This document shows positions 4,180 through 38,586 of a stretch of 38,586 nt of DNA, piece by piece. Source of the stretch: a virus; IMG/VR virus record IMGVR_UViG_3300035183_000435, positions 1 through 38,586 of that record. One strand, 5' to 3'. The position numbers and the translations under genes were made by a program. Numbering within the stretch: the first letter of the stretch is position 1; every line of letters begins with the position of its first letter. Below the pieces are notes generated by a model. The model ran no database searches, was not told where the DNA came from, and saw only the letters and a list, made by a program, of their open reading frames with translations.

Positions 4180-4797
4180 TTATTTTCTTAGCGATGATCC
4201 ATAAACTTTAATCAGGTTAAACATTTCCCGAAACCTGTCGCGCACCCTGGCATCGTATTTTTCCTCGATTTGCGACGGTGTGAGGTTGGTGGTGGCGTGT
4301 GTTATCATGCCCTTCTGTTTTGCCAAGTCATACCTGTCAAGTAAGATTTCCCGCATGATTTGGAATTTGTTACCATACAGGGCGCTCTCTTCCGGTTCCA
4401 AACCAAGGTCATCGAAACAATACTGGCGCGGATGAAATCCTATGCTGCCGATACCAATAACTTCAACCATGCAGAATGATTGGCGGGTGTATTTGTCGAT
4501 GGCACCTGTGGCATCTTTATCCGCCAATGCATCCCGCACAATGTCCCGGCATGGAACCACATGGAATAACCCCGTCATTCGTGCCATAATGCGCATTACA
4601 GTCGTTTTCCCGGTGCCAGGGCTACCTTCCAGTATCAGACCCTTAGATAATGCGAGGCCGCACGTTTCATCGCGTAGGAAATACCGCAACACCTGCTCAT
4701 ACAGTTCCGTGTTTTCATTGGTTAACTTGAACTCGGGCATCACTTGCTGGCCGTACTGTGGCAATGCAGCCCAGTATCTATCAAAATTGCTCTTCAT
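4180..4797 (-). CDS. DnaC-like AAA+ helicase loader
   Basis: An AAA+ ATPase of 205 residues. Numbering from the GTG at 4803: Walker A is GSPGTGKT (60-67), Walker B is YCFDDLG (128-134), a sensor-1-like TTN is at 171-173, and an arginine-rich RVRDRFREM helix is at 186-194. This matches the DnaC/IstB group of loaders that place the replicative helicase on origin DNA; here the helicase would come from the host or lie outside the window. I prefer the ATG at 4797. The gene overlaps the initiator gene by 17 bp, the same order as an O/P- or DnaT/DnaC-type pair. IstB-type transposition helpers are excluded by context. Confidence 0.85.
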   Translation of the reverse strand: MKSNFDRYWAALPQYGQQVMPEFKLTNENTELYEQVLRYFLRDETCGLALSKGLILEGSPGTGKTTVMRIMARMTGLFHVVPCRDIVRDALADKDATGAIDKYTRQSFCMVEVIGIGSIGFHPRQYCFDDLGLEPEESALYGNKFQIMREILLDRYDLAKQKGMITHATTNLTPSQIEEKYDARVRDRFREMFNLIKVYGSSLRK

Positions 4798-5752
4798 TGG
4801 CACCGCGTGTTATGTTCTTGTTGGTCGATGAGCTCCCCTGTTTGCGCAGCTTCCACGTGCGCACTGCAGCCTGCCAGTCCTTCATTCCAGTCTTGCCAAC
4901 CTTCCACCCTTTGCTGGTGTAAAACGATATGAATTGCTCGCTTTCCAGTGTACAGTCACCGGGGTATTGTATCTCGCGCATGTAGTCGGCAACTTCCGTC
5001 GCCGTTGGTTTTTTAAATTTTTTTTCCCCCTTATTATTAATAGTAGTATTATTATTAGATATATACTTATTATCTATATTATTATCTATATAAGAGGTGG
5101 GCGATTTTTTTTTCGCGCTGCTACCTCGTGCTGCTGGTTGATTATTTTGCATTTGATTTTCAACGTTTTGTAAATTTCGCGCTGCCCCCCCGTGCTGCTC
5201 CTTTTCAAAGTCCATCAGCGCCATCTGTAAATCTGTCAATCCTGCACCAGTATTGAGTTCCTCTGTTTTCGTGCTGCTCATCTGTGCAGCTACATCAATA
5301 GTCGGCATAGTTGGAATTGGCACAGTGTTGATTTGTGCAGGGGTTGAGTTGACACGCTGCGTGTATAGTTCCACCATGCGCGCGAACCCTTTCTTGGCAC
5401 CATGAGAGGCGTTAATGGCATTTTGTTTAGCGCGTTCCCGCGCGTGTATCATCTCAGGTATCAGATAACAGCCCTGATAATCTTGGTAAACTAATCGCGC
5501 CATCAACAGTTCATCCATCAATGCCTCACATCTGTCTGCAGGCATACCGACCATAGCAGCAATGCGTTCGATTTTCAAAGTGTTACCATTTATACGGGCA
5601 TGACCGTATGGACTGCCTTCGATCATTATCAAACACAGCTCTATAAACAGTGCCCTGGCTTCGAATGAGCACGCCCGCAAGCGTAGGTCATTTCTCCACG
5701 TGCGGGCGCGTATCTTTAGAAATCCGGGTTTCTTGTCATTTCCGAAAAGCAT
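4781..5752 (-). CDS. Replication initiator (lambda O / DnaT-like) that carries the likely origin
   Basis: 323 residues. The N-terminal ~100 (FLKIRARTWRNDLRLRACS, EARALFIELCLIMIEG, INGNTLKIERIAAMVGM) resemble the winged-helix domain of phage replisome organisers. A poorly structured, Asn/Thr-rich linker follows (YIDNNIDNKYISNNNTTINN). The C-terminal ~70 residues (TATEVADYMREIQYPGD, FISFYTSKGWKVGKTGM, KDWQAAVRTWKLRKQ) match the DnaT-like domain that contacts a helicase or its loader. The loader gene follows directly. The linker is coded by an AT-rich tract next to iteron-like repeats, so gene and origin seem combined. I chose 5752 because the longer frame from 5803 enters a tRNA-like locus. Confidence 0.8.
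   Translation of the reverse strand: MLFGNDKKPGFLKIRARTWRNDLRLRACSFEARALFIELCLIMIEGSPYGHARINGNTLKIERIAAMVGMPADRCEALMDELLMARLVYQDYQGCYLIPEMIHARERAKQNAINASHGAKKGFARMVELYTQRVNSTPAQINTVPIPTMPTIDVAAQMSSTKTEELNTGAGLTDLQMALMDFEKEQHGGAARNLQNVENQMQNNQPAARGSSAKKKSPTSYIDNNIDNKYISNNNTTINNKGEKKFKKPTATEVADYMREIQYPGDCTLESEQFISFYTSKGWKVGKTGMKDWQAAVRTWKLRKQGSSSTNKNITRGANEEQF
5008..5093. other. AT-rich tract, likely DNA-unwinding element of the origin
   Basis: This stretch is almost pure A/T apart from one CCCCC run, with TATTATTATTAGATATATAC-type sequence. It sits inside the initiator gene beside short direct repeats. Because coding sequence around it is about 45% GC, the bias is striking. In lambda, phage P22-type and related origins, an AT-rich segment next to initiator iterons is where strands first open. 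Here the call rests on position and composition. Confidence 0.6.
5111..5278. repeat. Iteron-like direct repeats inside the initiator gene
   Basis: Two 25-bp copies lie at 5111-5135 and 5175-5199 and differ at three positions. Each is built of two tandem versions of TCGYGCTGCT 13 bp apart. A further single half-copy is at 5269-5278 (TCGTGCTGCT). They lie immediately beside the AT-rich tract and give different amino-acid contexts (RGSSAK, HGGAARN), so repetition is not explained by protein repeats alone. They are probably binding sites for the encoded initiator. Confidence 0.6.
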
Positions 5753-5776: not shown

Positions 5777-5852
5777 TGGCATCGGGAGGATTCGAACCTC
5801 CAATCACATTGCGCAACTGAGCAGAAACACAGTGTTACCCGTTTGCGATGCC
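5777..5852 (-). tRNA. tRNA-like locus with intact acceptor and T arms, isotype unclear
   Basis: A perfect 7-bp acceptor stem (GGCATCG with CGATGCC), a perfect T arm (GGAGG-TTCGAAT-CCTCC), discriminator A and an encoded CCA (5774-5776) are present. The 44 nt between acceptor and T arm do not fold into a normal D arm and 7-nt anticodon arm by hand. The best anticodon-arm candidate (CTGTG/CTCAG) has a T-T mismatch and a 6-nt loop TTTCTG. It is either a decayed tRNA, a tRNA with a structure I could not solve, or a tRNA-like element. The first bases overlap nothing coding if the initiator starts at 5752. Confidence 0.5.
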
Positions 5853-5878: not shown

Positions 5879-5951
5879 TAGCGGGAGCAGGATTCGAACC
5901 TGCGACCTGTGGATTATGAATCCACTGTGCTGACCTCTGCACTATCCCGCA
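5879..5951 (-). tRNA. tRNA with CAT anticodon (Met type)
   Basis: A full cloverleaf of 73 nt. The acceptor is TGCGGGA with TCCCGCT, the D arm GTGC/GCAC with loop AGAGGTCA, the anticodon arm GTGGA-TTCATAA-TCCAC, the variable loop AGGTC, and the T arm GCAGG-TTCGAAT-CCTGC. The 1:72 position is a T-T mismatch, which resembles the unpaired 1:72 of initiator tRNAs. The anticodon stem lacks the three G-C pairs of initiators, so it could instead be elongator Met or, with lysidine, Ile-CAU. The 3' end is followed by CA rather than an encoded CCA. Confidence 0.88.
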
Positions 5952-6031
5952 ATGTGATGGCTCCAGTTAAACCATAGCAGTATAGTAAGCGTACACCCTG
6001 GCGCCACCATATTGTTCACCTGTTGTTGCGC

Positions 6032-7399: not shown

Positions 7400-7448
7400 G
7401 TATACTGCTGTTTTTTTTGCGCAAAATATATCACTCAATAACGCGATG

Positions 7449-7456
7449 CAAATTTA
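7449..7456 (-). promoter_or_regulatory. Promoter -7 box (TAAATTTG)
   Basis: The box sits in the 180-bp gap upstream of the coiled-coil gene, preceded by an A/T-rich run with AAACTTACAAAAAAAT, similar to the upstream halves of the promoters at 2.47, 10.15 and 12.5 kb. The leader to the ATG at 7339 is about 100 nt. Confidence 0.5.
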
Positions 7457-7518
7457 TTTTTATTTTTTTGTAAGTTTATTGCACAGGTTATTGATTTTCA
7501 TATTTTTTAATTTTGCGC

Positions 7519-10150: not shown

Positions 10151-10189
10151 CAAATGTATGCAAAAATTTACAATTTTCTGTAAATTATT
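10151..10189 (-). promoter_or_regulatory. Promoter with inverted repeat (operator-like)
   Basis: A -7 box TACATTTG (10151-10158) precedes the HTH gene. Upstream is a perfect inverted repeat, AATTTAC (10165-10171) and GTAAATT (10180-10186), spaced by 8 bp. The 19 bp at 10171-10189 are identical to 12508-12526. A dyad in a promoter of an HTH gene suggests repressor binding. The segment also covers the end of the upstream gene (10185). Confidence 0.6.
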
Positions 10190-12447: not shown

Positions 12448-12463
12448 GTCGTTAAGTGTTTAT

Positions 12464-12527
12464 GCCGCTAAGTAATGGAGTTTATAGGTACAATGCAAAT
12501 TTATTTTCAATTTTCTGTAAATTATTC
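12464..12527 (-). promoter_or_regulatory. Promoter block B, start of the early transcript
   Basis: It contains the -7 box TAAATTTG (12496-12503), the AATTTACAGAAAATTG segment shared exactly with the 10.17-kb promoter, and the leader TTACTTAGCGGC shared with 2.43 kb. It lies just downstream of the late-operon terminator and upstream of the small 54-aa gene and the GHKL ATPase. It likely drives the early block. Confidence 0.68.
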
Positions 12528-12565
12528 GCACAACAAACTGATAATCAGGCTGAATAAATTTAGCC

Positions 12566-34254: not shown

Positions 34255-35529
34255 CTATATTTTGTATTTAACAAAATCGGAAAACCATGTGTTCAGGTAA
34301 TACCTGAAACAGTCGAGCAGGTGGGTCATGCGGGCGTTACGGGTCTTGTCAAGGTCCCCGCCTTGAGTTACTTCGCAGTATAATAAATCCTCAATAAGGT
34401 GCTGGCATACTGGATCAATGTACAGCATCGGATGGCGCTGCAATAGACTGTTCGTCAATACGCGGCTATTGCCCAGCCCCGGGTTGGAGCGTGGTACAAT
34501 GATCTGGCTGGCCGATAACTGCATTTCCTGCATTATTACCCGGTAATAATTCAAATCATCCAGCACCAATGCGCTGCTGTTTTGCCCACTCGCGTCACCG
34601 GTTACATAGATGTAATACTTTGGAAAGTCGCGGCGTATGGCGCGACATAGTTCATAGATGTTACTGTTCCGCAACCTGTACTCGCGGTGGATGAATATCC
34701 GGGTGCGCTCTTGATTGTGCTGGCATACCAGTGCGGTTATTGGGTCGACGTTGAAATCAAATGACACATACAATGGCAGTGCAATGTTTGGTGCCCCAGT
34801 TGGCCGTACATGGCGACCACGGTCAAATCCATAGGCAAATGGGCGACCAACGTCCACTATGTCCCAGTTACCGCGCACAAATCGCTCATAGGTAATCATG
34901 TCAAGCGTTTCCAGCGATTGCACATATTCGGGGTCGAGGTATGGGTTGTCGGCCATGCTGGCGGGTATGAATGCGCGGGGCGGTAATAAATCGCCAGCAG
35001 CCCATGGCTCATAGAACAGCTTCTTGCTGAAGTTTTGCGACGGGTTGCCGGTCATTATGATTAATTTCTTCGGCTGATGCGCACCCTGCAATATGTGTCG
35101 CCCGGCGCGTAACCGGGCTTTGTTGTACATCTTTTCCTGCAGTTCTTGGCACTCCTCAAGCAGGAACCCATTCACGTCGAACCCGTCGAACTTGGTGAGG
35201 TCTTTGTCCTTGTCGAAGTTCTCGCCGGTGAAAATTATCTGACTGCCATTCTTGAAGGTGGCAGTGTAGTTTACAAATGACATCAGGAACCGTGGAGGGA
35301 CCAGTTCGCGGAACTTCGGCAGGGTATTGTCCACCAGTTTCTGTCGATCCCGGCGTACCACTGCCCACCGGCTGCCAGGGTATATCTTGCAAAGTGCAAT
35401 AAGCAATGCCAGTGCGCCGTATGTTTTACCGCCGCCAGCAGCCCCGCCATAATACAACTCGAATATACCCGGCGTAAATGCCGCTTTAATCAACTGCTCC
35501 TGTTTTGGCGTTGGCGTGAAATTGGCCAT
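34255..35529 (-). CDS. terL: Terminase large subunit
   Basis: 424 residues. Walker A is GAAGGGKT (29-36), Walker B with catalytic Glu is GFLLEE (121-126), and a C-motif-like MTGNPSQNF is at 159-167. The nuclease domain gives D258 (YVSFDFNVDP), D312 (YVTGDASGQ) and D406 (LLDCFRYY). The ATPase drives DNA into the head and the RNase H-like nuclease cuts concatemers. The length matches short HK97-like TerL proteins. It follows a candidate small subunit by 16 bp. Confidence 0.93.
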   Translation of the reverse strand: MANFTPTPKQEQLIKAAFTPGIFELYYGGAAGGGKTYGALALLIALCKIYPGSRWAVVRRDRQKLVDNTLPKFRELVPPRFLMSFVNYTATFKNGSQIIFTGENFDKDKDLTKFDGFDVNGFLLEECQELQEKMYNKARLRAGRHILQGAHQPKKLIIMTGNPSQNFSKKLFYEPWAAGDLLPPRAFIPASMADNPYLDPEYVQSLETLDMITYERFVRGNWDIVDVGRPFAYGFDRGRHVRPTGAPNIALPLYVSFDFNVDPITALVCQHNQERTRIFIHREYRLRNSNIYELCRAIRRDFPKYYIYVTGDASGQNSSALVLDDLNYYRVIMQEMQLSASQIIVPRSNPGLGNSRVLTNSLLQRHPMLYIDPVCQHLIEDLLYCEVTQGGDLDKTRNARMTHLLDCFRYYLNTWFSDFVKYKI

Positions 35530-35545: not shown

Positions 35546-35830
35546 TTAGAAGGTGATTGGTTGACCCAGTATCATGAACACCTGTTGTTCACAATTATCC
35601 GTATCATTTACCACCATCCGCTGTGGTTTTGGAACGCTAAATTCGAACAGCTTTATCATCGCCTGCACCCTGTCGCGTGGCTGCAATTTGGCAATGTCAG
35701 CGGCAAATTGTTCGGGTGTGTATAGGGCCGTAAACTGCTCGATGTATTCAAGCGTGACTTTGCGCTTGGCCTTTGCCGTGGCTTTTTTGCCCTTATTGGA
35801 TTTATGCTGGTCTCTTTCGGTGGTTTCCAT
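35546..35830 (-). CDS. Terminase small subunit candidate
   Basis: 94 residues: a basic N-terminus (KSNKGKKATAKAKRKVTLEY), then FTALYTPEQFAADIAKLQPR, DRVQAMIKLFEFSVPKPQR. The 'LkPrDRv....lfe..vPKpQ' segment is common in short genes just ahead of TerL in Bacteroidota phages. No clear HTH is present, so DNA recognition is unproven. It is the first gene after the iteron copy at 35911-35935. Confidence 0.6.
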   Translation of the reverse strand: METTERDQHKSNKGKKATAKAKRKVTLEYIEQFTALYTPEQFAADIAKLQPRDRVQAMIKLFEFSVPKPQRMVVNDTDNCEQQVFMILGQPITF

Positions 35831-35910
35831 ACCGCTGCATCGTTTTACGGCTGATGATACCGCCTATTCGGCACAATGTACAAACATTTGCCAAATCTGC
35901 AAAATAATTG

Positions 35911-35935
35911 TTTTGCGCTGCTACCTCGTGCTGCT
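35911..35935. repeat. Iteron copy upstream of the terminase genes
   Basis: The 25 bp match the iteron at 5111-5135 at 24 positions, and the following GG also match. It lies in the 133-bp gap between the RHH-like gene and the small terminase candidate, where no gene is seen. Possible roles are a packaging-start signal, a second initiator site, or a control site. Confidence 0.6.
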
Positions 35936-35963
35936 GGCAGTGGCTGCTCGATATATTCCCTGT

Positions 35964-36134
35964 TCAGTGTTCAGATTTCTGCACCATTCCATTATTTTGC
36001 TTCAGAATTTCTTTTGCGAATTTCTCCAGCTTCGCCTCGACATAATTCTTGAAATTCGTACCGCACTGTGCGGCTCGAACTGTAAGAATCCTTACTGTCT
36101 CGTCGGATAAGTCTATGTTCTTCCTCTTCTTCAT
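35964..36134 (-). CDS. Ribbon-helix-helix-like small protein, 56 aa
   Basis: MKKRKNIDLSDETVRILTVR is a likely RHH strand and first helix, and AAQCGTNFKNYVEAKLEKF a second helix. The pattern is that of antitoxin-type or transfer-type RHH proteins, and the tail is polar. It overlaps the upstream 135-aa gene by ATGA. Length is normal for RHH proteins. It could autoregulate the pair. Confidence 0.65.
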   Translation of the reverse strand: MKKRKNIDLSDETVRILTVRAAQCGTNFKNYVEAKLEKFAKEILKQNNGMVQKSEH

Positions 36135-37863: not shown

Positions 37864-38586
37864 CTACTTCTTCTTGACTATGTGAGACAGCGCGTTTTTC
37901 TCGTGCAGGTTTGCAATAAACTCGATGTAGTTGCCATATTCCGCGATCTCTCCTGCGCTGTAACCATTGTTTTCACCGATGCTCTTGAAGTTATTTTGCC
38001 AATCTTTTATCGAGTGTTTTATACAGCCGATTTGAATTTCATCAGAACCCCAATACGACACGTGATGTCTTGATCCGTTGAAGCTAAGAGTGCGGACGAT
38101 AACGCATTTCTCGATGCTCGCGCCTTTGCCGATTTTCGCGCCCCATCCGATGCTCGCGCCTTCACCGATGTTCGCGCCTTCACCGATGTTCGCGCCTTCG
38201 CCTATGTTCGCGTCCCATCCGATGCTCGCGTCTTCGCCTATGTTCGCGTCCCATCCGATGCTCGCGTCTTCGCCTATGTTCGCGCGTGGGCCGATGCTCG
38301 CGTCTTCGCCGATGCTCGCGCCTTCGCCGATGTTCGCGCCTTCGCCGATGTTCGCGCGGTGGCCGATTATCGCGCCGTCGCCGATTATCGCGCCGTCGCC
38401 GATGTTCGCGCCTTCGCCGATGTTCGCGCGTGGGCCGATGCTCGCGTCTTCGCCGATGCTCGCGCCTTCGCCGATGTTCGCGCGGTGGCCGATTATCGCG
38501 CCGTCGCCGATTATCGCGCCGTCGCCGATGTTCGCGCCTTCGCCGATGTTCGCGCGTGGGCCGATGCTCGCGTCTTCGCCGATGCT
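37864..38586 (-). CDS. Hexapeptide-repeat left-handed beta-helix protein (N-terminus cut by window)
   Basis: The frame is open from the right edge to a stop at 37864, giving 240 residues. About 26 hexapeptides of the type IGEGAN, IGEDAS, IGPRAN, IGDGAI and IGWDAN (pattern [LIV]GxxAx) run down to about 38110. These build a triangular left-handed beta helix. The C-terminal ~80 residues are a separate cap: FNGSRHHVSYWGSDEIQIG, then CIKHSIKDWQNNF, a helical region, and a Lys-rich tail. Transferases also use such helices, but no catalytic insert is visible; adhesion or structure is possible. A GTG at 38061 is internal, not the start. Confidence 0.85.
   Translation of the reverse strand, partial: SIGEDASIGPRANIGEGANIGDGAIIGDGAIIGHRANIGEGASIGEDASIGPRANIGEGANIGDGAIIGDGAIIGHRANIGEGANIGEGASIGEDASIGPRANIGEDASIGWDANIGEDASIGWDANIGEGANIGEGANIGEGASIGWGAKIGKGASIEKCVIVRTLSFNGSRHHVSYWGSDEIQIGCIKHSIKDWQNNFKSIGENNGYSAGEIAEYGNYIEFIANLHEKNALSHIVKKK
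38113..38586. repeat. 18-bp tandem repeats with a higher-order 144/126-bp unit
   Basis: Each 18-bp unit codes one hexapeptide. A block at 38281-38424 (144 bp, eight units) recurs at 38425-38550 (126 bp, seven units) and starts again at 38551. The second block equals the first minus exactly one unit, with the rest identical by eye. This points to recent duplication and slippage in multiples of 18, which keeps the frame. The array continues past the window. Confidence 0.9.

Follow-up and report, generated by a model that had tools for sequence, protein, structure and literature searches.

The window analysed here is the whole 38,586-nucleotide stretch given by positions 1 to 38,586 of IMG/VR virus record IMGVR_UViG_3300035183_000435. 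Two minus-strand genes with predicted roles in replication overlap in its left part, and one of them, the initiator gene, contains an AT-rich tract and three pairs of short repeats. The features of this region are as follows.

4180-4803, minus strand: DnaC-like helicase loader gene (phrog_50, 5e-15; phrog_3277, 7e-9)
4781-5752, minus strand: initiator gene, with its ATG at 5752 (phrog_15768, 1e-18; phrog_28809, 7e-9)
5008-5093, no strand assigned: AT-rich tract (86% A/T), candidate DNA unwinding element, with a core at about 5034-5093 (90%)
5111-5135, minus strand: repeat pair 1, AGCAGCACGA-GGT-AGCAGCGCGA; the 25-bp unit is TTTCGCGCTGCTACCTCGTGCTGCT
5175-5199, minus strand: repeat pair 2, AGCAGCACGG-GGG-GGCAGCGCGA
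5267-5291, minus strand: repeat pair 3, degenerate, AGCTGCACAG-ATG-AGCAGCACGA

The 3' end of the initiator gene overlaps the loader gene, and this overlap and the phrog_50 match bear out the gene order given in a preliminary description of this DNA, in which an initiator precedes a DnaC-like loader. Directly upstream of the initiator gene is a good tRNA-Met (cat) gene (5777-5852, minus strand), and beside it is a tRNA-like element (5879-5951, minus strand) with intact acceptor and T arms and a degenerate middle, which scored 25.1 bits against Rfam, below the gathering score of 29. The tRNA-Met gene and the tRNA-like element are partly complementary (arms 5803-5825 and 5936-5958).

The 323-aa product of the initiator gene consists of a variable N-terminal domain, a disordered linker, in the coding region of which the candidate origin lies, and a conserved C-terminal domain (about residues 243-312). 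PHROG families 15768 and 28809, both of unknown function, cover its C-terminal half, and no Pfam or NCBIfam family scored above the cut-off. The C-terminal domain was also found by tblastn in initiators of Bacteroidota and Vibrio phages. In an AlphaFold (AF2) model built from 20 sequences, this domain was confidently predicted (pLDDT about 95). Residues 189-237 had pLDDT values below 50, and the linker, which covers the codons of the repeats and the AT-rich tract, is thus predicted to be disordered, in agreement with the earlier suggestion that the AT-rich codons specify a flexible linker. The predicted structure matched viral models named replication initiator, replisome organizer and DUF6291, and returned no significant match in the PDB. 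The protein had been described as an O/DnaT-like initiator; assignment as an initiator stands, as it matches phage initiators of the DUF4373/DUF6291 type, but no significant match to O or DnaT was found in sequence or fold. By eye, the sequence of the N-terminal domain looks YdaU/DUF1376-like when set against a Pontibacter homolog and a Pseudanabaena phage protein. As none of 70 viral relatives carries a homolog of the N-terminal domain, it was poorly modelled. Searches for close phage relatives via the initiator, via the phrog_8203 protein and by megablast returned none.

The two 25-bp repeats reported previously, each with two TCGYGCTGCT-like halves, were found at 5111-5135 and 5175-5199 and are identical at 22 of 25 positions. 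A further half reported alongside them is also genuine (5269-5278) and is matched by a degenerate second half at 5282-5291, which makes the third element a 13-bp-phased pair as well. Each element therefore comprises two AGCAGCRCGA half-sites, 13 bp apart and in the same orientation, and the three pairs are spaced 64 and 92 bp apart. Reading along the minus-strand gene, the order is 5291-5267, 5199-5175, 5135-5111, the AT-rich tract (5093-5008) and the part encoding the C-terminal domain. The 25-mer occurs three times in the window when up to 3 mismatches are allowed and not once across 100 dinucleotide shuffles. With up to 1 mismatch, the half-site TCGYGCTGCT has 15 matches in the window, where 5.4 are expected. 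A matrix made from the seven strong halves scored all seven at 15.1 or above, high by construction as these are its training sites, and the runner-up in the 38.6 kb scored 12.7.

The adjoining 86-bp tract has the highest A/T content of all 86-bp windows in the record (second best, 80%), and its best 60 bp is 90% A/T. The preliminary description was right to place such a tract next to the repeats, though "nearly pure" A/T overstates 86%.

The window's repeat sequence had no match in the 85k genomes searched, and on these grounds the candidate explanation that it is a host REP-type or mobile element was rejected. Matches to a looser pattern in viral contigs were chance-like and mostly in GC-rich contigs, and two other patterns returned none.

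A further copy, missing from the preliminary description, is present about 31 kb from the in-gene repeats, near the terminase genes. Positions 35908-35937 are identical to 5108-5137 at 28 of 30 positions (BLAST E 4e-7). The features around this distal copy are as follows.

34255-35529, minus strand: large terminase gene, TerL (phrog_2, 1e-24; relatives 47% identical)
35546-35830, minus strand: putative small terminase gene, terS, so called from its position adjoining TerL only, with no family match
35873-35902, minus strand: promoter-like TTG-N19-TACATTGT of the Bacteroidota -33/-7 type, a weak match to the consensus only
35911-35935, minus strand: distal repeat pair, AGCAGCACGA-GGT-AGCAGCGCAA, lying between genes; a third half-site, at 35948-35939, is weak
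35964-36134, minus strand: 56-aa ribbon-helix-helix (RHH)-like ORF upstream of the distal pair (weak FitA-like_RHH match, E 0.03, below the cut-off)

The repeat is a signal in the DNA. Copies 1 and 2 differ in codon register and in the peptide that they encode (AARGSSAK and QHGGAARN), the distal copy lies outside any likely gene, and a codon-permutation test that counts only offsets not divisible by 3 was significant for the initiator gene (z 9.8, p 0.0025). Codon permutation is a partial null, and the control genes that calibrate it, eight others from the window, gave no significant result (p at least 0.17). That the repeats are instead a feature of the protein, a repetitive low-complexity linker with no role for the DNA, would fit the predicted disorder of the linker and the in-frame repeats seen in some homologs. 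Such a linker would leave unexplained the change of register, the extra-genic copy and the significance of out-of-frame offsets taken alone, and we regard this explanation as extremely improbable.

As no relative carries the window's repeat sequence, conservation was assessed from architecture rather than sequence. Direct repeats at out-of-frame offsets were detected in the linker of 31 of 70 homologous initiators and in 4 of 149 other genes (Fisher 3e-14; 70 non-redundant IMG/VR homologs and controls from the same contigs, the homologs being related and not independent). The other 39 homologs had no significant out-of-frame repeats (p >0.025). Counted by protein cluster, about 14 of 24 were positive (about 15 of 25 with one cluster double-counted). 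Repeat offsets in the homologs were typically 10, 11, 22 and 23 bp, none a multiple of 3, with 10, 11 and 23 dominant. The AT minimum fell within the linker in 45 of the 70 (14.8 expected). Lambda O, used as a positive control, was detected by the repeat test at its annotated 20-bp spacing. A second sample, made up of 28 initiator genes from Bacteroidia genomes and the window's own, had significant linker repeats in 15 of 29 genes, where 1.5 were expected. These repeats are unrelated in sequence from one Bacteroidia initiator to another, with 23-bp units in one case, for example, and inverted repeats in a different one. One Bacteroidia prophage homolog (L120) has three copies of an inverted-repeat box, ACTGTCCCAATAATGGGACAGACAA, at gene offsets 340, 385 and 597, in contrast to the direct half-sites of the window. 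In the corresponding linker of Vibrio phages 1.259.O and 1.155.O, the unit TTCCGGAG occurs three to four times at a spacing of 11 bp.

Repeats and an AT-rich tract in the initiator linker are thus an architecture conserved across homologs. The DUF4373/DUF6291/phrog_15768-type initiators of Bacteroidota and Vibrio phages share the homologous C-terminal domain, the linker repeats with an AT-rich tract and, as in the window phage, adjacent helicase or loader genes; they differ from the window's initiator in the type of N-terminal domain and in having unrelated repeat sequences. Among 31 IMG/VR relatives, 13 have a DnaB helicase gene immediately downstream, about 6 have one for an IstB/DnaA-type loader and 2 have one for an SSB, and in a Porphyromonas phage an annotated "replication initiation protein" overlaps a "DnaC-like helicase loader". 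Judged from these comparisons, the reading of the initiator gene as the seat of the origin holds for much of the family. The family is widespread among phages (Bacteroidota, Vibrio), and its members often have linker repeats and an AT-rich tract, with a repeat sequence that differs between phages. As linker repeats recur across it, origins should be callable with a simple out-of-frame repeat test.

We conclude that 5008-5291, in the linker-coding part of the initiator gene, is very probably the replication origin of this phage, and that it belongs to a known kind, the lambda type. In lambda, the O protein binds iterons within its own gene, and the AT-rich DNA beside them unwinds (PMC7466680, PMC4488673). 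Four features of this type were found here, namely direct repeats in the initiator coding sequence, a flanking AT-rich tract, selection at the DNA level and an adjacent helicase-loader gene. The order is also that of the lambda origin in gene O, with direct repeats followed by an AT-rich tract in mid-gene, then by the part for the C-terminal domain and then by the helicase-loader gene. The lambda iterons are four in number, 18-19 bp long and spaced by about 20 bp, whereas the window has three pairs of 13-bp-phased half-sites, and no similarity to lambda O or P was detected in the window's proteins. An AT-rich region within an initiator gene is likewise required for replication at P1 oriL, in repL (PMC9948254); the P1 initiator is unrelated. 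The lambda-type origin proposed in the preliminary description is therefore supported by the repeats with their AT-rich tract, by the order of the genes and by recurrence across the family. The check on GC skew put forward with it revealed no inflection near 5.1 kb, but skew is uninformative here, as nearly all likely genes are co-oriented and the sequence is a 38.6-kb linear fragment.

By analogy with lambda, we propose that the N-terminal domain of the initiator would bind the three pairs of AGCAGCRCGA half-sites, that the resulting nucleoprotein complex would melt the adjacent AT-rich tract, and that the C-terminal domain, together with the neighbouring DnaC-like protein, would load the host replicative helicase. 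The AT-rich codons would yield a flexible linker rich in Asn, Lys and Ile, and in this way coding and origin function can coexist. For an uncultured Bacteroidota-type phage, a probable replication origin can thus be located to the base pair.

The copy at 35.9 kb is outside the initiator gene, and the repeat is therefore not confined to the origin. The promoter-like TTG-N19-TACATTGT follows the distal pair at a distance of 9 bp, and terS is about 80 bp downstream; a regulatory role for the distal pair is possible given its distance from this weak element. Taken further, all of the repeats could be operators at which a phage regulator, either the 56-aa RHH-like protein or the initiator acting as a transcription factor, controls a terS or late promoter, and their presence in the initiator gene would then be coincidence or autoregulation. 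While the RHH-like ORF is indeed just upstream of the distal pair, its assignment is below the cut-off, and the promoter match is weak and one of about 7 such on the same strand of the window. Moreover, six of the eight half-sites are in the initiator gene beside the AT-rich tract, and homologous genes have linker repeats whatever their sequence. We therefore consider operators an unlikely explanation for the repeats as a whole, and favour sites for the initiator.

On that basis, the initiator probably binds the distal pair as well, which would serve either as a fork barrier or late site like oriR of phage SPP1, or as a link between replication and late expression. A full origin is unlikely there, as the site is one pair only with no AT-rich tract (local A/T 47-67%). 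SPP1 is the nearest precedent, with its main origin in the initiator gene and a distal, intergenic copy of the repeats in the late region. Both SPP1 sites, oriL within gene 38 and oriR among the late genes, are bound by the initiator G38P, which is believed to hold up replication forks at oriR (PMC6316719, PMC3485210). In the window, a distant late-region copy is present (28 of 30 positions), but it has neither an AT-rich tract of its own nor repeated boxes, while SPP1 oriR has repeats and an AT-rich region. The window's distal site is also directly upstream of terS, unlike SPP1 oriR.

The distal pair may, like oriR, bind the initiator, stall forks and promote a switch from theta to sigma replication, a prospect to which we give somewhat less than even chances. 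Apart from the binding of G38P at both SPP1 sites, it draws on the RusA-like resolvase, exonuclease VIII-like and NinB/Orf proteins that the phage encodes, which, from their predicted identities, are compatible with recombination-dependent late replication. Set against it are the single pair and the lack of an AT-rich region, unlike SPP1 oriR, and the relatives examined, in which there is no such site. When contigs of 14 relatives, covered over all or almost all of their length, and 11 prophage regions were searched for distal copies, none comparable was found. The window scored 25.8 (control 11.4) and the other contigs 10.7-14.4 (controls 10.6-16.4), and the single extra strong match falls within another initiator gene.

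The position of the distal pair immediately upstream of terS and TerL could also indicate part of a packaging initiation site (cos or pac) for the terminase, which would then touch the in-gene copies too. Relatives of TerL, at most about 48-50% identical, lack the window repeat, and those with 47% identity have no related repeat near terS. As a packaging site would also fail to account for the cluster within the initiator gene and for the repeats at this place in homologs, we think it improbable. A second site for the initiator accounts for the distal pair better in our judgement, and a more speculative extension is that the initiator acts at two places, the in-gene origin and the distal pair upstream of a terS promoter, thereby coupling replication to the expression of late genes or to the changeover to concatemer synthesis. 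We regard this as possible but doubtful; coupling of this kind was not described for the window's initiator family in the literature searched. The lone extra-genic copy upstream of terS offers a concrete site at which a possible link between replication and packaging or late expression can be probed.

Several other features of the window were recorded. Dispersed AT-rich repeats, ATGCAAATTTATTTTCAATTTT..GTAAATTATT, are found at 2431-2527, 7446-7500, 10166-10189 and 12460-12556, apparently between genes; they are up to 97 bp long, with 78% identity between copies 10 kb apart, and may be shared promoters or operators. The product of a minus-strand gene at 24544-25083 matches phrog_1128 (7.5e-10), a PHROG auxiliary family named enoyl-CoA hydratase/carnitine racemase-like. 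At the right end, a long array of 18-nt tandem repeats (38020-38586), GATGTTCGCGCCTTCGCC-like and of the type that encodes hexapeptides, runs off the end of the record.
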